Origin: a virus | Length of the DNA: 46,715 nt | Direction: 5' to 3' (one strand) | IMG/VR virus record: IMGVR_UViG_3300025009_000167 | Span: 1 to 46,715 of that record | Shown: in pieces, positions 2,277 to 46,227 of the stretch | Position numbering within the stretch: position 1 is the first letter of the stretch | Layout of the letters: each line of letters starts with the position of its first letter | Made by a program: the position numbers and the translations under genes | Notes under the pieces: generated by a model | Seen by the model: only the letters and a program-made list of their open reading frames with translations | Told to the model about the DNA's origin: nothing | Database searches by the model: none

Positions 2277-2613
2277 CGGGGTTGGCATCCTCTGCCGACT
2301 TCTGCCCATCCTCCACCATCTCCCATTCATTGTAGAGATTGCGGACGACCGTGCCGAAGCTGCCATCCTTACGCCGAGGATGTCCAGCGAGCCATGGCTT
2401 TCCGTACTTATCGGATATCTCCACCACTTGGTATTCCAGCCCGCGTCTTTTGACGATCATCCCCTCATAGAGGCCCCACTTGGCCTTAATCAGGAGCAAT
2501 TCCTGTGCGCTAATTTCTGCATTGAGCCGGCGCCGATCTTCCAGGAGAGGCTCCAGTCTAGCTTCCAGCACCGCCAATTGCCTTTTAAGCTCATGTAATT
2601 CCCACTTAGCCAT
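2269..2613 (-). CDS. Coiled-coil protein with small beta-rich C-terminus, 114 aa
   Basis: Residues 1-45 form a heptad-like coiled coil (MAKWELHELKRQLAVLEARL and on). The C-terminal part (YEGMIVKRRGLEYQVVEISD, GKPWLAGHPRRKDGSFGT) looks like a small SH3- or KOW-like beta domain. The start is ATG 2613, which overlaps the stop of the gene upstream (ATGGCTAA) after GAGGAG. No family recognised. Confidence 0.7.
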   Translation of the reverse strand: MAKWELHELKRQLAVLEARLEPLLEDRRRLNAEISAQELLLIKAKWGLYEGMIVKRRGLEYQVVEISDKYGKPWLAGHPRRKDGSFGTVVRNLYNEWEMVEDGQKSAEDANPDA

Positions 2614-3136
2614 CGGGGTTCTCCTCTCTCCCGAAGATCGTCTGTCCATTCCAGGGACATTCTGGACAGAGTTCGGCGTGCAGCGCCAGCAACTCAGGCA
2701 TATGCTGTGCGATGTTCTCAACTCCCAGCCGGGTGCTCTCGGCCCACAGCCGGGTGCTCTCGGTCCACAGCCGGGTGCTCTCGGCCCACAGCCGGTGGCC
2801 CTCCTCCCACAGCCGGGTGCCCTCGGCCCACAGCCGGGTGCTCTCGGTCCACAGCCGGCTGGCCTCGGCCCACAGCCGGTGGCCCTCCTCCCACAGCCGG
2901 TTGCCCTCGGCCCGCAGCCGGTCGCTCTCCTCCCGCAGCCGGGTGCTCTCGTTCACCGCTTCCGCCAATCCAGCGGATAGGCGCTCAGGCGGGACCATCT
3001 GGAAGAGTCGGAGACGAAGAGGCCGCTCTGCTGGGGGCTTCTCCTGCTTGATGTACGCCACGCGCTCGTCGTAGTTTGTCACAAACTCGACTAGCCTGTC
3101 GTGGTGGCAGTGAAACGCCACCCCTGATTTAGCCAT
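2606..3136 (-). CDS. Heptad-repeat coiled-coil protein, 176 aa (paralogue of 42244-42774)
   Basis: Three parts are visible. The N-terminal domain has HCHHDRLVEFV and RLRLFQMVPPERL. The middle has about a dozen tandem 7-residue units of the type RLWAE(G/S)(T/H/N), encoded by a 21-nt repeat. The C-terminal domain has HMPELLALHAELCPECPWNG. The HCHH cluster and CPEC pair could bind a metal. The heptads should form a long alpha-helical coiled coil with Leu and Trp at core positions. A clear paralogue with the same length and domain order lies at the other end of the window. It shares ATGGCTAA start/stop overlaps with both neighbours. Function unknown. Confidence 0.8.
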   Translation of the reverse strand: MAKSGVAFHCHHDRLVEFVTNYDERVAYIKQEKPPAERPLRLRLFQMVPPERLSAGLAEAVNESTRLREESDRLRAEGNRLWEEGHRLWAEASRLWTESTRLWAEGTRLWEEGHRLWAESTRLWTESTRLWAESTRLGVENIAQHMPELLALHAELCPECPWNGQTIFGREENPDG

Positions 3137-4204: not shown

Positions 4205-4251
4205 ACCAGTGGATTATACCATCATCCATCCACCACTCAGTTTTCACTGGT
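4205..4251 (-). promoter_or_regulatory. Promoter/operator of the XRE gene
   Basis: A perfect -10 TATAAT (minus strand, 4213-4218) lies between inverted ACCAGTG (4205-4211) and CACTGGT (4245-4251). The -35 region is weak. The arrangement suggests repressor binding on both sides of the promoter. It overlaps the 3' end of the amidase frame. Confidence 0.5.
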
Positions 4252-4722
4252 GATTCCCCTAAACAGATCCCACATTCCGCCCGGACATTCTGTCTCCCAT
4301 CCCGGGAGAGCCAGGTCGCGGTGGCCTCGGACTTCGGCCCACGGCACTTGCGCTTTAAGTTTGACGATCAGCCACCGCAACGATTCGAGCATGACTAGCG
4401 GCGGGCTCTGGTGAGACCAGTCCCCGGCTAGGCAGATACCCACGGCGTCATGGTTATGTTCGTGAATATGGTAGGACATGGCGGTGATGTCATGGAGCCA
4501 GTCAATGCTGCCGTCCCAATGGAGCAGGTAATGATACCCCACCGCGGGCCATCCCTTCGTGCCCACGTGGTAGTCAGCGATCTCCTTAGCCGTGAAGTCC
4601 CGCTCGGCCCCCGCCGTGTGGTGAATCGCTAACCACTTAATCGCTGGGTAGGAGCGGGTCGGATAGACGCCGGTGGCCGGTAGCAGACCCCGCAGGTCGA
4701 TTACCCGCGGGGCGCTCAGGCT
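4237..4722 (-). CDS. N-acetylmuramoyl-L-alanine amidase domain, -1 frame extension of the upstream lysin
   Basis: The frame encodes a complete Amidase_2/PGRP-type domain: VIDLRGLLP, then IHHTAG (zinc His), then GWPAVGYHYLLHWDGSI, EVRGHRD (zinc His) and TECPGG (zinc Cys). It cleaves the MurNAc-L-Ala bond of peptidoglycan. The conserved domain begins directly after the stop of the upstream gene with no ATG, GTG or TTG and no Shine-Dalgarno. The first GTG (4566) lies after the catalytic IHHTAG. The frame enters from a CCCTTTA heptamer, so the likely product is a fusion made by -1 frameshifting. A disabling indel is the alternative. Confidence 0.85.
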   Translation of the reverse strand, partial: SLSAPRVIDLRGLLPATGVYPTRSYPAIKWLAIHHTAGAERDFTAKEIADYHVGTKGWPAVGYHYLLHWDGSIDWLHDITAMSYHIHEHNHDAVGICLAGDWSHQSPPLVMLESLRWLIVKLKAQVPWAEVRGHRDLALPGWETECPGGMWDLFRGITSEN

Positions 4723-4728
4723 AAAGGG
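4688..4728 (-). promoter_or_regulatory. Programmed -1 ribosomal frameshift signal (slippery site plus stem-loop)
   Basis: On the minus strand the heptamer C CCT TTA (4728-4722) sits in the correct phase (X XXY YYZ) with the zero-frame stop TGA one codon later (4718-4716). After a 9-nt spacer comes a 10-bp stem (4712-4703 with 4697-4688, one G-T pair) with loop AATCG. Slippage yields CCC TTT AGC and continues into the amidase domain. Confidence 0.7.
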
Positions 4729-5687
4729 TAAGGGTAGACGACAACGGACTCCTGGCCGTCCTGCCAGGCAAATAGGTTGGGTTCACTATCTATCATGACC
4801 CGTTGCAGGCTCGCATGGTCTATGCTGATCTCATCTGAGAAGGCCAGCACCGTATGTCCGTCGGCTCGCAGCCTTTCCGCCAGGACTTTGAATCCCAAAA
4901 CGAATTCCGGCATGGGTTCCTCCTTCTGTTGTGCCGTGGCTTTGAAATCCTCATACAGGTCCGGGTTGCGCAATAGCGAATATTGATAGAAAGCTGGGTC
5001 GTCGCTGGAGAGGATGAACCAATAGCTCTCGTCACATCCATTCCGGGCCAGGGCCGGCGCGTAGATGCTCGGAAGCATCTGATTAACCTCGGTGCAAACT
5101 ACCGGCAGTCCCACGATGGCCCCAAGCGTGTCCGCGTCTTGAAGATCATCCAGCTCGTAGCAGTGCACATCCGCGAAATCGAATCTATCGCCTAAGCCGG
5201 CATCACGATATGCATACCAACTGTCCTCGTAATCGCCGATGGGCGAGAGTGCCGGTAGGTGTACCTCTACACCCAATTCCAAGTTGTCCGCAGCAACGAT
5301 TTCAGTGAATGCCGAGAGATAGGCTTTCGCGTACTCAATCTGTGCTGACCAGTCCTCGCCCCAACCCTCGATATTCATTTCATTCCAGGGAATCCACCCA
5401 GGAGTTAGGCCAGCGCCCAAGTACAACTGGAAAAGCCTCGCGTCCTCAGCGGCGCAAACCACGGGGTTCAGCCCCCGCACCGTCGGTCGGTAGACTCGCA
5501 CCAGGGGCGCAGTGATGCCCAGGTCACGGCACAGTTCTGCTTCCTGAGTAATTCGGTCATACTCCTTATCATCGTCGTGATAGGCGATGATAAGGAGATT
5601 ATCGGGGCCCAGGTCACGAACGGCTTTCAGTTCCCGCTGAAAGTACTTGCGAAATTGGGCGTTGGGAAGCCCTAGGCCAAGGGTCAT
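4716..5687 (-). CDS. Glycoside hydrolase-like lysin domain (clan GH-A-like TIM barrel)
   Basis: The 323-aa zero-frame protein has TIM-barrel features. WIPWNEMNIEGWG (Glu103) resembles the acid/base Asn-Glu of clan GH-A. VVCTEVNQM (Glu200) is placed like the nucleophile at the end of strand 7. It ends VVVYPYPLA just after the slippery heptamer, and the -1 frame supplies an amidase domain. It overlaps the holin-like gene by ATGA. In context it is the glycosidase half of the endolysin; the substrate (glycan strand or host polysaccharide) is not readable. Both a short form and a fusion of about 480 aa could be made. Confidence 0.7.
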   Translation of the reverse strand: MTLGLGLPNAQFRKYFQRELKAVRDLGPDNLLIIAYHDDDKEYDRITQEAELCRDLGITAPLVRVYRPTVRGLNPVVCAAEDARLFQLYLGAGLTPGWIPWNEMNIEGWGEDWSAQIEYAKAYLSAFTEIVAADNLELGVEVHLPALSPIGDYEDSWYAYRDAGLGDRFDFADVHCYELDDLQDADTLGAIVGLPVVCTEVNQMLPSIYAPALARNGCDESYWFILSSDDPAFYQYSLLRNPDLYEDFKATAQQKEEPMPEFVLGFKVLAERLRADGHTVLAFSDEISIDHASLQRVMIDSEPNLFAWQDGQESVVVYPYPLA

Positions 5688-5977
5688 GACACCGGCGGGG
5701 CTAGGAATCGGCTATAGAGATCGTGTACATATTGGCTGCCACGACCCATAACCAGGCCGGAGAGGATCACATCGGCGTAGTAGGGCGCAGTGGCAATTCC
5801 AGCCAGGTTTTTGAGCAGCGTCACCTGGAAGGCGAAGGCTAAAAGCAGACCCCCACCAAGAGCTACGTACTTGATGACCCGCTTCTCCAACCACTCCCCG
5901 AAAATCCACTCGACCATTGATTCGTTAACGAACGCCAACAGTGTGATGATCGCCAGTGCCGTTAGTCCTGTTGTCAC
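5684..5977 (-). CDS. Holin-like membrane protein, 97 aa
   Basis: Hydrophobic segments lie at about residues 3-20 (GLTALAIITLLAF), 37-55 (YVALGGGLLLAFAFQVTLL) and weakly at 65-80, followed by GRGSQYVHDL. Small size, two to three spans and a position directly upstream of and overlapping the endolysin fit a holin. A GRGSxYVHD segment recurs in phage membrane proteins I recall. The start is GTG 5977, 2 nt after the preceding stop, with GGAGAAGG just upstream. Confidence 0.65.
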   Translation of the reverse strand: MTTGLTALAIITLLAFVNESMVEWIFGEWLEKRVIKYVALGGGLLLAFAFQVTLLKNLAGIATAPYYADVILSGLVMGRGSQYVHDLYSRFLAPPVS

Positions 5978-5978
5978 G

Positions 5979-6356
5979 TTACCTTCTCCTTCCCGGCTGT
6001 GCCTTTCGCTGAAAATGTGGTTGCTCCACGTTCCACGAACTCACAAGGGCGATATCCTCCCGCATCGGCGCTCCGTGCGTTCGCAGTTGGTGCCCGGCGT
6101 GTCGCAGTTGAAACGCCCTCGTCAGGTTAGGCACCCCGTTCCAGAACGTCATCGTCTCTGTGAGTCCGCACGAGCACTGCACGTAGCGGGCGACCTCATT
6201 CATCACTGCCCTCCGCCGTGGCCGGCCGCCCCGGTCCGGCGTGTCTTCGGCACAGACGGGGAAGGGGCAAGCCAAGCACCGGGAGCCAGGCCCGGCCTTC
6301 TCGCACCCGCGGTCCTCGTGCGTACCAATGTGGGTTCCGCCTAGCGGTCTGGACAT
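5979..6356 (-). CDS. Cys-cluster protein, possible zinc-binding regulator, 125 aa
   Basis: The N-terminal region holds a Cys cluster (GCEKAGPGSRCLACPFPVC, positions about 18-36) of the C-x8-CxxCPxxxC type, and CSCG follows near residue 60. Such clusters occur in small zinc-binding phage regulators. The rest is not recognised. ATG 6356 shares one base with the stop of the RNA ligase gene (TGATG), so the two are coupled. The Arg-rich C-terminus could bind nucleic acid. Confidence 0.6.
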   Translation of the reverse strand: MSRPLGGTHIGTHEDRGCEKAGPGSRCLACPFPVCAEDTPDRGGRPRRRAVMNEVARYVQCSCGLTETMTFWNGVPNLTRAFQLRHAGHQLRTHGAPMREDIALVSSWNVEQPHFQRKAQPGRRR

Positions 6357-7300
6357 CAGGCGCCCCCTAGCCCAGGCTCCAGCAGCGTTTCATCCTCAAA
6401 CTGACGTTTGAGCAATTCTCCTTTGTAGTGTTCTGGGAGCCCTCGCACCACTCCACGCTTGATTTTGGGCAACGCCCATTCCAACAACTTTGTTGCGATC
6501 AGGTCCACGCATTCCTTTTCGATGTCGGCATGAACCTCTTTAATTAGAGCGCCGATATCGCGAGGCGAATCCTCAATCTGGCTCAACTCGCGCAAGTGCT
6601 GAACTGCCTTGTTCCATCGGGCCGGTGTCCGTAGAGAGAAAATTAATTCCTCAATAATATCAGACTTCGAGGGATTTGCTTCCTTCCACGCGGCAGCGTG
6701 AACCTCCTTAAATCCTTCGGAAACAAACTTGCCGATCAGCACGTGTTTATCTAGCCCAAAGCGGGAGTAGTTTTTGACCACGACTCCCTCTACTTTTTGG
6801 CCACCGAGAATTGATGGTTGGTCCAGCAGCCCTCGGAACATCTGGACATCGCTCACCATACCCTCATAGATGCGCGGCACTGTCTCAAGTCCCAGGCGTT
6901 TGGCTTCCATAACCTTATCATCGTAGGGTAAGTACAACTCGTGGTCAGTATTGATGTCGAAGATTATCAGATTTTTTTCGGGTACACGGTCATAGGCCAA
7001 AGCGTTGTGCCGCGCCTTTTGCAGGTATTCAGCCCGATATGTCCATCCAGGATGCAGGGGCAAGCTGTTGATGATTTCTATTGCTTTGTGAAACATCTTC
7101 TCAGGGGCTACCAGATTAAGTTCTGCCCCTTTTGAACGGGCCTTCAGCGTCAATTCTCCCATATCATCGAGGAATATTCCCCACGAGAATTGGCTGCCAT
7201 CGATTTTTTCCTCAACCAGCACGGGGTCAAGGAACAGTTCTGCCAACGCCCGGTGCCCCAAGGCAAAGATACTCGGGTAGGAATGCCAACTATTAGTCAT
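6356..7300 (-). CDS. RNA ligase, T4 Rnl2-like nucleotidyltransferase
   Basis: The 314-aa protein has the covalent nucleotidyltransferase motifs in order. Motif I is EKIDGSQFS with Lys32 as the AMP-accepting residue. It is followed by YRAEYL near 89-94, IIFDI near 112-116, motif IV VEGVVVKN (170-177) and motif V LIGKFVSE (Lys191). A roughly 120-residue helical C-terminal domain follows. Such enzymes seal nicks in RNA, often to repair host anticodon-nuclease damage. The start is ATG 7300; a TTG at 7351 is less likely. It stands among lysis genes rather than with replication or tRNA genes. Confidence 0.9.
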   Translation of the reverse strand: MTNSWHSYPSIFALGHRALAELFLDPVLVEEKIDGSQFSWGIFLDDMGELTLKARSKGAELNLVAPEKMFHKAIEIINSLPLHPGWTYRAEYLQKARHNALAYDRVPEKNLIIFDINTDHELYLPYDDKVMEAKRLGLETVPRIYEGMVSDVQMFRGLLDQPSILGGQKVEGVVVKNYSRFGLDKHVLIGKFVSEGFKEVHAAAWKEANPSKSDIIEELIFSLRTPARWNKAVQHLRELSQIEDSPRDIGALIKEVHADIEKECVDLIATKLLEWALPKIKRGVVRGLPEHYKGELLKRQFEDETLLEPGLGGA

Positions 7301-7396
7301 GACGCCCCACATCCAGGGGCCAGGAGAGTCCAGGCACCCCCCTGGCTCCAAACATCTTTGGCACTTTGGAAATACGGACGGAGAGGTTCTCTGACT

Positions 7397-29468: not shown

Positions 29469-31157
29469 TTACCACGCCGCGGCCGGCTTCTTGCGGCGCG
29501 CTAGTTCCGCGCCTTGCCGTTCCAAGAACTCGTTCTTTTGCTTAGACGTGAGCCAGTTAGGGGGATCAAGGGGCTTCCCTTTCTCATCCACCACTGGCCC
29601 CCGATAGGGGGGTTCCTTAACCTCTCCTGACTTAAGGCGATCTCCTACCTTTCCTGCGGTCTGCGCATAAATGTCGCCAAGCACGCCTAGTAGTCCTTCC
29701 GGGGACCCTTTCCCCCTGGCAAATCGGCCGATATCCCTGCTTATGTCGCCAATTGATTCTTGCCAGGGCTCCCGTGGCGACCCGCCGCCCATCTGCTCAC
29801 TGTAGGTGTCCCACCCCTTTGCCGTAGGTGGAGGGATGGGCTCGTCATCCATCTCAATCGGATGCCCACCCCTCTGCTTACTGTCGGAGCGCCAATCCAC
29901 TGACGATAGCCCAGAGTTGGCAAACAGATCATCCATCGAGGGCAACAGCTCCTTACTTCCTTGCTCATCCCACCCGGACATGTCAACCTCCGGCAGCCAG
30001 TCCTCCGGGGGTTTCTTCGCAGCATCGTTTATCTCCTGTTCTCTTTCGGTTCCCCGGTTCATCATGCCCTTCCAGTTTGGCGCCGGAGGCAGATAGTCCT
30101 TAAGTTGGCCGACAATATCCAGGTCAATAGGAATAAAGGCGGGTTCTATGGGCTTCAGTTCGTTCATGCGCCCCCGGTCCCAATTGCCCAGGTTTTTCAT
30201 GACGGTCTCTGCGCCCTGCCTAGTCATCATGTACGGCGCCAGCCTCTCGATTATCTCATACGGAGCCAGGATAGCCTCGCGCCACATGGTCGCCGCGTCC
30301 TTGTTGCGGTCCCACTCCGCTTTAGCCTCAGCCGTGCTACGGACTCCGGCAGCAATCTGGTCTTGCAAGAGATTGCGCTGTTCTGACAGGGACGGCCCAA
30401 GCACGTCGTCAGAGAACCATATGGCTTCCTCTGCCTTACTAATCTTCGCATCAACGGCCTTTAATTGAGCTTCGACAGACGTGATTCTTTTATCCAACTC
30501 GGTTGGGTCCGCATTATCCGGCAAGGCGTTGTACGCCGCTAGAAGCGCACTAAGCTTGGCCTCCAGTGAAGCCTTGAGGCCCTCCTGAATGGTGATGAAT
30601 TGTTCGGCGTTATTGACTAGGGCCTTACCGCGCTCTTCCTTGGGGCCAGCGGGGATCACGGGCCGCGGGCGTGTCGGTTTCTCGTCTCCCATCGTAGCGT
30701 CTCCTTTCGGCTCTCCTTTCGGCTCGGACGATCCCTTTGTACTCGAAGGCGGGCTTCCCCCTGCTAAGCGGCTGATCTTGCCGGCGTAGTCCTGGTCAGT
30801 GGCCCAGCCCTTACCTTGCAGGTACTTGGCGAAGTCGTAGGCATTAGTCTTGGGCGCATCCTTGTACCGCGGCGAGAGCATGTTGCGGGCCAACCGCTCA
30901 AAAGCTGCGCCAATGCTGGCGTCGGAGGCAAAGTCGGCCCTGGTGTTCACCCGCTTCCCCCCTTCAACTTCCCATGTAGGGTAGTTGCCCGAAGCCTCAC
31001 CGGGAAGAGCCTTTATCCCAAAGAGCGGTTTCTTGAGGTCTCCGCCCGTTTCGTTACGCGCCATGGCGATGAGCCAGGCGGCGGGAATACCTGTCTTCCG
31101 CTCTGTCTCTACCGCGTAGGGCCAGAGGGACTCAGTAAACCTGTCCTTCTCAGGCAA
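29469..31157 (-). CDS. Virion-associated peptidoglycan hydrolase (glucosaminidase/FlgJ-like), 562 aa
   Basis: The first 130 residues match the GH73-type glucosaminidase layout: FTESLWPYAVETERKTGIPA, WLIAMARNETGGD with the catalytic-region Glu, LFGIKALPGE, and YPTWEVEGGKRV. The end is KYLQGKGWATDQDYAGKI, where WATD..YA is a family hallmark. The remaining 430 residues form a coiled coil and a linker-like virion part. The likely role is local cell-wall digestion at DNA ejection. The start is TTG 31157, directly after the stop of the 53-aa gene, with GGAAGGG upstream. Confidence 0.8.
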   Translation of the reverse strand: MPEKDRFTESLWPYAVETERKTGIPAAWLIAMARNETGGDLKKPLFGIKALPGEASGNYPTWEVEGGKRVNTRADFASDASIGAAFERLARNMLSPRYKDAPKTNAYDFAKYLQGKGWATDQDYAGKISRLAGGSPPSSTKGSSEPKGEPKGDATMGDEKPTRPRPVIPAGPKEERGKALVNNAEQFITIQEGLKASLEAKLSALLAAYNALPDNADPTELDKRITSVEAQLKAVDAKISKAEEAIWFSDDVLGPSLSEQRNLLQDQIAAGVRSTAEAKAEWDRNKDAATMWREAILAPYEIIERLAPYMMTRQGAETVMKNLGNWDRGRMNELKPIEPAFIPIDLDIVGQLKDYLPPAPNWKGMMNRGTEREQEINDAAKKPPEDWLPEVDMSGWDEQGSKELLPSMDDLFANSGLSSVDWRSDSKQRGGHPIEMDDEPIPPPTAKGWDTYSEQMGGGSPREPWQESIGDISRDIGRFARGKGSPEGLLGVLGDIYAQTAGKVGDRLKSGEVKEPPYRGPVVDEKGKPLDPPNWLTSKQKNEFLERQGAELARRKKPAAAW

Positions 31158-37231: not shown

Positions 37232-37257
37232 ACGTCACTGCCATCATCACCGTCGCA

Positions 37258-37689
37258 TCAAATACATCGCTTAATATCAGCCTTGACCTTGCGCAGCTCC
37301 CTGGCGGTGAACCGCGGTTTGGACCGCTCTTCGGCTAGAAACTGTTTGAGGGTTTTGTGCTCGTGGACAGTTGGCGGGAGGCTGGCGACCTGCCTAGCGA
37401 TAGACGCGGCCCACTTCTCGCCCTTGACCTTGTGCGGGAGTACATAATAGTCGCGCCGACCTTTTCGGATAACCAGAAGAACCCCCAGCGAGGCAAGTCG
37501 GCGTACATGAATCCCTACGGTTCGCTGACTACTCCCGGCCCGAAGCCCTATCGCCTCCTGGCTTGGGAAGCACCCGGTATTGTTCCCGTAAGAGAAAGAG
37601 CATATCGCCCAAAAGGTATTCTTCAGTCCAGGCGTCAGGGCTTCCAACGCCAGGTAGTCAACCACCAAAGGGACCCATCCTGGCGTCAA
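37258..37689 (-). CDS. Winged-helix/HTH replication-initiator-like protein, 143 aa
   Basis: The N-terminal 90 residues match the HTH_36 type seen in replication initiators and primosomal proteins: KNTFWAICSFSYGNNTGCFP, then SQEAIGLRAGSSQRTVGIHV, RRLASLGVLLV. The C-terminal part is basic and helical. TTG 37689 overlaps the TGA of the 48-aa gene as TTGA, so coupling supports this rare start. It might bind an origin or regulate early genes. Confidence 0.75.
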   Translation of the reverse strand: MTPGWVPLVVDYLALEALTPGLKNTFWAICSFSYGNNTGCFPSQEAIGLRAGSSQRTVGIHVRRLASLGVLLVIRKGRRDYYVLPHKVKGEKWAASIARQVASLPPTVHEHKTLKQFLAEERSKPRFTARELRKVKADIKRCI

Positions 37690-37832
37690 GGCCAGCCGCG
37701 GACCTTCTTATACGGCAACGCACCGTTGACGGCCTTGCCCGCGACCATGTCCCTGATGTCCCGCAACACACGTTGTACGCCCTCCTCCGGGATGTCGGTA
37801 TGTTGTCGGATTTGCCACTCAACAAACCTCAT
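37686..37832 (-). CDS. Small hypothetical protein, 48 aa
   Basis: MRFVEWQIRQHTDIPEEGVQ, then RVLRDIRDMVAGKAVNGALP, then YKKVRGWP. Strong GGAGGAGCAGGAG immediately upstream of ATG 37832. Its stop overlaps the TTG of the HTH gene (TTGA). It heads the operon that runs to terL. Not recognised. Confidence 0.7.
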   Translation of the reverse strand: MRFVEWQIRQHTDIPEEGVQRVLRDIRDMVAGKAVNGALPYKKVRGWP

Positions 37833-37908
37833 CTCCTGCTCCTCCGTCCACCCGCCGCTGTTTCAAAAATCCCCCTATAACCCCCTTATGTTATTAGTGC
37901 GCAGTTCC

Positions 37909-37938
37909 GTGTACATATTAGCTTTGAATCTTGTACAC
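37909..37938. promoter_or_regulatory. Inverted repeat, operator-like
   Basis: GTGTACA at 37909-37915 and TGTACAC at 37932-37938 form a perfect 7-bp dyad 16 nt apart. TAATAT (minus strand) lies just inside one arm. Likely a control site for the leftward operon beginning at 37832. Confidence 0.45.
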
Positions 37939-38104
37939 TAACTTACACCACCAAAACACCCCTATCAACCCCGACGCCCTACCGTTTCCCCAACCCCAGG
38001 TCATCCTGGTCATCATATCACTTAGTTTCTCTCTCCAATAACTGAGTAAAGCTTGAAAGTTTTTTTGTGCTGTATTGGGGCAGAGAACACGTCCTTACTC
38101 CCCC

Positions 38105-38275
38105 CTAGTAGGGGAACCGGGGTATGGGTAGGCGTTGCTGGCCTGGTGCGTAATAATGAAGGCGCTGCCGGCGCCTGTTCGCACTATTGCATCTTATGTC
38201 AACCTGTCCACTCGTAGTCATCGCAGGCTCGCTGCCCATGCCCCCTTGTACTGCGATGCTCGTAGCTGCAACCAT
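38105..38275 (-). CDS. Doubtful 56-aa ORF after terS
   Basis: MVAATSIAVQGGMGSEPAMT, then TSGQVDIRCNSANRRRQRLH. Open frame without a convincing ribosome-binding site; an Arg-rich patch is the only feature. It may simply be open by chance. Confidence 0.2.
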   Translation of the reverse strand: MVAATSIAVQGGMGSEPAMTTSGQVDIRCNSANRRRQRLHYYAPGQQRLPIPRFPY

Positions 38276-45425: not shown

Positions 45426-46227
45426 CTGGCCAATAACGCACGGCTGGCACACTAGCCCCGGCGGCCAGCGCGTGAGCCTGGGGGACGGCGTGAGCCTGGG
45501 GGACGGCGTGCGCCTGGGGAACAACGTGAGCCTGGGGAACGGCGTGAGCCTGGAGAACAACGTGAGCCTGGGGAACGGCGTGAGCCTGGGGAACAACGTG
45601 AGCCTGGGGGACGGCGTGCGCCTGGGGGACGGCGTGAGCCTGGGGAACAACGTGAGCCTGGGGAACAACGTGAGCATGGGGGACGGCGTGAGCCTGGGGA
45701 ACAACGTGAGCCTGGGGAACTACGTGAGCCTGGGAGACGGCGTGAGCCTGGGGGACGGCGTGAGCCTGGGGAACAACGTGAGCCTGGGGAACAACGTGAG
45801 CCTGGGGGACGGCGTGCGCCTGGGGAACAACGTGAGCCTGGGGAACGGCGTGCGCCTGGGAGACGGCGTGACTAGCGAGGCATTGAACGAATGTTTCCGC
45901 CAAGCGTACCTCTCTGGTTCAGAAACCCACATCTTTTGGAAATGGGTGACTCCTGCCCGGAAGTCCCCCAATTTCGATGGGGGTACGGTGCTGACGTACG
46001 CGCAGGAAGCCGTCGTCGAGGCGGAGGCCGTAGTGAGCGATCAGCAGTGCGCGGCGGGGCTGCATGTGCTGCGTCCCGGATACCGGCCGGAATGGGTGGG
46101 ACTGTGCGCCCCTGGCCACGATCTGATTTGCCTGCGGGTGGAAGTGGCCAGCGCGGATATTCTGTTTGCCGGCCTACCTACGATGGACGCGAAGGTCCGG
46201 GTGCAGAGACTCAAGGTGCTGGATTAA
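45394..46227 (+). CDS. Hexapeptide-repeat left-handed beta-helix protein, 277 aa
   Basis: After 26 residues, 22 uninterrupted hexapeptides of type VSLGDG/VSLGNN/VRLGDG follow. Read as L-G-x-x-V-S they fit the [LIV]-[GAED]-x2-[STAV]-x rule of left-handed beta-helices, about seven turns. The C-terminal 120 residues end CAAGLHVLRPGYRPEWVG, then VEVASADILFAG and AKVRVQRLKVLD, resembling a C-terminal domain (CxxGLHV, KVRVxRxKVL) that follows pentapeptide or hexapeptide repeats in other phage proteins. No acyltransferase His loop. Possibly a DNA- or protein-mimic rod (inference). Confidence 0.8.
   Translation: MVTTTTTEIRSWPITHGWHTSPGGQRVSLGDGVSLGDGVRLGNNVSLGNGVSLENNVSLGNGVSLGNNVSLGDGVRLGDGVSLGNNVSLGNNVSMGDGVSLGNNVSLGNYVSLGDGVSLGDGVSLGNNVSLGNNVSLGDGVRLGNNVSLGNGVRLGDGVTSEALNECFRQAYLSGSETHIFWKWVTPARKSPNFDGGTVLTYAQEAVVEAEAVVSDQQCAAGLHVLRPGYRPEWVGLCAPGHDLICLRVEVASADILFAGLPTMDAKVRVQRLKVLD
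45472..45867 (+). repeat. 18-nt tandem repeat, 22 units
   Basis: In-frame repeat of GTGAGCCTGGGGGACGGC-type units with two common variants (GGGGACGGC and GGGAACAAC). Encodes the beta-helix hexads. High identity between units implies recent expansion or gene conversion. Confidence 0.85.

Follow-up and report, generated by a model that had tools for sequence, protein, structure and literature searches.

The 46,715-base virus record IMGVR_UViG_3300025009_000167 (the window, by which the whole stretch of DNA analysed is meant) appears to encode a bifunctional endolysin whose two parts, a glycosidase-like and an amidase half, are split over two reading frames and are very probably joined by -1 programmed ribosomal frameshifting. 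The case rests on two independent examples, the window phage and a highly divergent phage contig, IMGVR_UViG_3300027819_000018 (L199).

The lysis cassette of the window lies on the minus strand. It includes a holin-like small membrane protein of 97 aa (5684..5977; phrog_20258, E 2.9e-8), whose gene passes into the next through an ATGA overlap. By eye, this gene resembles the holin-like genes adjoining the glycosidase-amidase proteins of two relatives, L164 and L173, and its product has no match by tblastn in known phages. The next gene is a zero-frame ORF of 323 aa (4716..5687, minus strand) in which a 65-aa module comes after a glycosidase-like domain (WNEMN ... CTEVN); the 3' end of the ORF reads TAC CCT TAC CCT TTA GCC TGA, with the TGA stop at 4716..4718 (minus strand). 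The -1 frame is open downstream of stops at 4788 and 4785 as far as 4237, and its segment from AGC to the stop (4237..4722, minus strand; 161 aa after the slip) encodes a zinc amidase of the PGRP/T7-lysozyme type. The cassette of L199 has the same order, with a holin (PF05105, E 1e-27), a glycosidase ORF whose last codons are AAT TCA CTC CCT TTA GCG TAA and, in the -1 frame, an amidase. An RNA ligase gene (Pfam RNA_ligase, E 1.5e-11; 6356-7351, minus strand) lies close upstream of the window cassette. Elsewhere in the window, positions 2606-3136 (minus strand) encode a protein of 176 aa that contains RLWxExxRLWAE-type tandem repeats, with nucleotide self-repeats at 2723-2951, and an internal repeat array with 85-93% self-match identity occupies 45470-45871.

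The -1-frame segment matches Pfam Amidase_2 (E 5e-15) and phrog_822 (E 4e-24), and its AlphaFold model (pLDDT 80.8) has the PGRP/T7-lysozyme fold, with the Ts2631 endolysin (6fhg; Foldseek E 9e-13) as the best PDB match. Residues H49, H149 and C161 are invariant across relatives, and the zinc ligands are retained and the domain intact in the window phage and L199 alike. Taken with a holin-like neighbour in the window and a Pfam holin in L199, the Amidase_2 match and these three residues identify the product, as judged from sequence, as an amidase-type phage endolysin. The Thermus phage endolysins Ts2631 and Ph2119 (PDB 6fhg, 6su5) share the fold, with ∼27-32% identity to the window amidase in the structural match, but are stand-alone amidases; tblastn in known phages returned distant amidases only. 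A second lysin-like protein of 562 aa is encoded at 29469-31157 (minus strand), by the portal and terminase genes. Its first 158 residues match the phrog_3513 endolysin (E 1e-15), and it is perhaps a virion-associated lysin.

The 323-aa ORF can be called glycosidase-like, perhaps of GH clan-A type, on the basis of its relatives and its motif pattern. Its L199 counterpart matches Pfam Glyco_hydro_cc (PF11790, E 5e-7), the ORF itself aligns weakly to the glycosidase parts of L164, L173 and L116, and NE and TE motifs (NE..N / TE pattern) are present. Pfam gave no glycosidase match for the window ORF, tblastn found no match to it in known phages, and its AlphaFold model was unusable (pLDDT 36.8) and was left out of the analysis.

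At the junction between the two halves, the slippery heptamer C CCT TTA (4722..4728, minus strand) lies in phase, two codons ahead of the zero-frame TGA. In-phase XXXYYYZ heptamers number 34 in the 10,991 codons of the window phage; the second triplet is AAA or TTT in just six of them, and CCCTTTA is the sole CCC.TTT case. For the 22-codon overlap, the chance expectation is ∼7% for any in-phase XXXYYYZ and ∼1% for the A/T kind. TTA is the rarest leucine codon in this phage (39/899). The heptamer C_CC.U_UU.A was chosen in E. coli work, with more than 0.10% shifting without a stimulator and under-representation in genes (PMC4066793). Nine nucleotides past the heptamer stands a 10-bp hairpin with a 5-nt loop, CCCCGCGGGT-AATCG-ACCTGCGGGG (4688..4712, minus strand), which is a candidate frameshift stimulator. 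Its minimum free energy is -19.5 kcal/mol, a stability reached by none of 7000 sampled 25-nt stretches of the same strand over 35 kb; for the surrounding 96 nt, z = -2.64 and 0/200 shuffles were equally stable. No Shine-Dalgarno sequence was found 10-14 nt upstream of the window heptamer, and Rfam gave no match on the minus strand, the strand of interest. A role of the hairpin as terminator is unsupported, with no T run after it, and so is transcriptional slippage at the junction, where base runs are only three long.

A survey of all -1/+1 overlaps in the window found the glycosidase-amidase junction to be the sole genuine overlap without a canonical start and the sole one with a heptamer; the genuine junctions with a canonical start are ATGA overlaps at 5687, 11590, 16418 and 36920. 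Ahead of the catalytic histidines, the -1 frame of the window holds no ATG, GTG or TTG, and only CTG at 4719, CTG at 4767 and other non-standard codons. The -1 ORF extends beyond the zero-frame stop, and the conserved domain that it encodes has no start of its own. The preliminary description of this locus had drawn attention to the in-phase heptamer before the TGA, to the 10-bp hairpin 9 nt on and to a -1-frame zinc amidase without ATG, GTG or TTG, and each of these was recovered here, the hairpin as an outlier in stability.

The same junction is found in L199. The two phages agree in the heptamer, its phase, its distance from the stop and the 21 nt that separate it from GAYYTNCGGGG (the DLRG codons), and CCCTTTAGC is identical at 9/9 positions. 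The surrounding nucleotides agree at 33% over the upstream 60 nt, which is about random, and at 52% over the 105 nt that begin with the heptamer; in the -1 frame, 3/30 amino acids are identical ahead of the heptamer and 17/45 past it. The glycosidases hardly align, and because none of the 33 window proteins tested against the L199 record matches at E ≤ 1e-4, the junction has outlived the divergence of everything else tested. A used frameshift site would be predicted to leave just this pattern, in which the nine bases and the frame break survive and both phages retain an intact amidase. The -1 frame of L199 holds two GTG codons (2752, 2809), located 49-68 codons upstream within the glycosidase gene and without Shine-Dalgarno sequences; from 2809 to the catalytic histidines there is no ATG, GTG, TTG or CTG. 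The stimulator structure is not clearly conserved between the two phages, since the downstream structure of L199 is modest. Its stability is -8.9 to -14 kcal/mol, the former value belonging to the corresponding stem ∼8 nt past the heptamer, and a 45-nt stretch with this structure ranks only among the top 24% of the locus in stability. An outer CCCC/GGGG pairing is possible in L199 too, though weaker.

Closer and more distant relatives were also compared. The frame break and the whole cassette are identical in four near-identical records, the window and three from other metagenomes, which differ from one another outside the cassette; these same-phage records are too similar to show selection. 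Most of their other sequence is >99.9% identical, and window positions 37248-38240 vary among them, with substitutions and indels clustering near 37,848 and at 38,076-38,239. In the Chloroflexota prophage-like regions L164 (435 aa) and L173 (442 aa), the same two domains follow in the same order beside a similar holin-like neighbour; these differ from the window cassette in having one open frame, which needs no slippery site, and in lacking the 65-aa module. Five further Chloroflexota loci (L112, L139, L162, L165, L166) code for single-frame proteins of great length (750-1370 aa) that contain several amidase-like domains, of which some appear to lack active-site residues and several stand behind a glycosidase-like domain. 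In the close relatives L147, L116 and L198, the amidase stands alone and starts from its own ATG at a similar position. Among the 80 viral relatives listed in a survey, only the window's own phage lacks a start ahead of the catalytic region, by a crude count in which L199 was scored as having a start, a GTG at least 49 codons upstream.

Searches for further examples covered several collections. Single-protein scans of viral contigs returned the same phage only, and a scan with a consensus entered as a second row, which served just for search patterns, gave nothing new. Of 40 records reached through terminase relatives, which were too distant, the amidase was found only in the three same-phage records that hold this region. 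The junction DNA pattern recovered the two known phages and unrelated chance matches from viral contigs, and a single chance-like match from 400 genomes of one phylum. Among the amidase matches listed, from 72 of 396 genomes of one class, every one lies in an uninterrupted frame.

The most direct alternative is termination-reinitiation, in which ribosomes that had finished the glycosidase ORF would begin a separate amidase gene at the CTG of a CTGA overlap with the stop (4719); in the window phage this could work in principle. The window phage does favour ATGA overlaps, including the one from holin to glycosidase just upstream, which likewise has no Shine-Dalgarno sequence, and the stand-alone relatives L147 and L116 have an ATG start about the same distance ahead of the VxDLR motif. 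However, a TGA stop always yields NTG in the -1 frame, so that a CTG at 4719 is about a one-in-four accident, and this codon has no Shine-Dalgarno sequence and is followed by the -19.5 kcal/mol hairpin from +8. L199 has a TAA stop and no NTG codon in the stretch described above, and therefore CTGA reinitiation cannot explain both phages; it is considered unlikely. The preliminary description had named a separately initiated amidase as a finding that would speak against frameshifting, and none fits both phages.

It could also be supposed that the frame break is damage or an artefact. A real indel may have split a former single-frame fusion, leaving a decaying gene with the amidase poorly or not expressed and the heptamer incidental. 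Such fusions are known in L164 and L173, and short homopolymers, CCC and TTT among them, are favoured by indels; against this, highly divergent L199 has the same break and the same nine bases, and neither phage has further damage, with the amidase and its zinc ligands intact in both. This origin is therefore judged very improbable. A one-base sequencing or assembly error, the other refutation that had been anticipated, has even less to recommend it. Every record is a metagenome assembly, but the same-phage records share the cassette in full yet differ elsewhere, and the independent L199 is arranged alike, which makes such an error very unlikely indeed. The frameshifted endolysin proposed earlier thus gains support from the junction conserved in L199, which supplies the conserved heptamer and frame break sought in a relative, and natural single-frame glycosidase-amidase proteins, the other check suggested, exist in the prophages L164 and L173.

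The frames, the heptamer, the hairpin, the lack of other starts and the conservation in L199 are all read from the sequence, whereas slippage, its efficiency and the stimulating role of the hairpin are inferred. In the frameshifting model, ribosomes translating the glycosidase-like ORF would arrive at C CCT TTA, and the majority would continue to the stop two codons on, releasing the glycosidase with the 65-aa module. Some would slip by -1, with the P-site tRNA-Pro moving from CCT to CCC and the A-site tRNA-Leu from TTA to TTT, probably assisted by the hairpin 9 nt downstream. Slipped ribosomes would then proceed through AGC CTG AGC... into the amidase, and the resulting fusion, ...YPYPL-SLSAPRVIDLRG..., would have VVVYPYPLSLSAPR as the peptide spanning the slip junction. 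The predicted length of the fusion is 483 aa in the window phage and 459 aa in L199.

Upstream of the slip site, the glycosidase ORF contains a probable internal start, AAGGAGG-AACCC-ATG (4911..4925, minus strand), with its ATG at 4913, 65 codons ahead of the zero-frame stop. The 14-nt AGGAGGAACCYATG occurs in both glycosidase ORFs exactly 65 codons from the stop (window 4925-4911; L199 2760-2773), and the 65-aa modules of the two phages have no evident mutual similarity. No comparably strong internal site between the domains was seen on inspection of L164 and L173, the nearest single-frame fusions, and a scan of L098, L100, L103, L220, L225, L226 and L248 likewise gave no strong between-domain site. 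In a less certain step of the model, initiation at 4913 would probably also yield the 65-aa module by itself and, if the ribosome slips, a module-amidase protein. The preliminary description had proposed a short and a long lysin form in a set ratio; its frameshift part is supported, and what it missed is the conserved internal start at 4925-4911, which would give two further products. It is possible, though we hold this only tentatively, that the internal start and the -1 frameshift site bracket an exchangeable 65-codon module within one lysin gene, giving up to four products, namely glycosidase-module, glycosidase-module-amidase, module alone and module-amidase.

Internal starts are known in the lysins CTP1L, CD27L, Lys170 and 2638A (PMC4777826, PMC6023083), and also in CS74L (PMC4777826). 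In these, a Shine-Dalgarno sequence and start at the linker give a second, C-terminal product, as proposed here, and in 2638A the internal start sits between two lytic domains. In the window, unlike in these lysins, a putative frameshift follows the internal start, whose product would be the module or module-amidase.

In dsDNA phages, -1 frameshifting is known mainly from tail-assembly genes. The window junction has in common with phage tail-assembly genes, IS3-family transposases and dnaX an in-phase heptamer, an overlapping -1 ORF, a strong and close downstream hairpin, and predicted short and extended products. It is unlike these in that the product is a lytic enzyme, with a second catalytic domain as the extension and not a chaperone or transposase part. 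Lysins have also been listed as frameshift-containing by the authors of PRFect; these too have a lysin over two overlapping frames, in phages of a different host group from that of the window phage. In mycobacteriophage Ms6, a frameshift has been suggested at a GTGA overlap before lysA (PMC3111421). Because frameshifted lysins have been claimed before, the window case is a variant and not the first. What is likely to be new is a conserved slip site between endolysin catalytic domains, together with a likely internal start.

The arrangement carries a warning for annotation, as standard gene callers would list the glycosidase-like half only and would miss the amidase, because it has no legal start. 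If the frameshifting explanation is true, phages would use recoding also to control the amount or composition of the enzyme with which infection ends.
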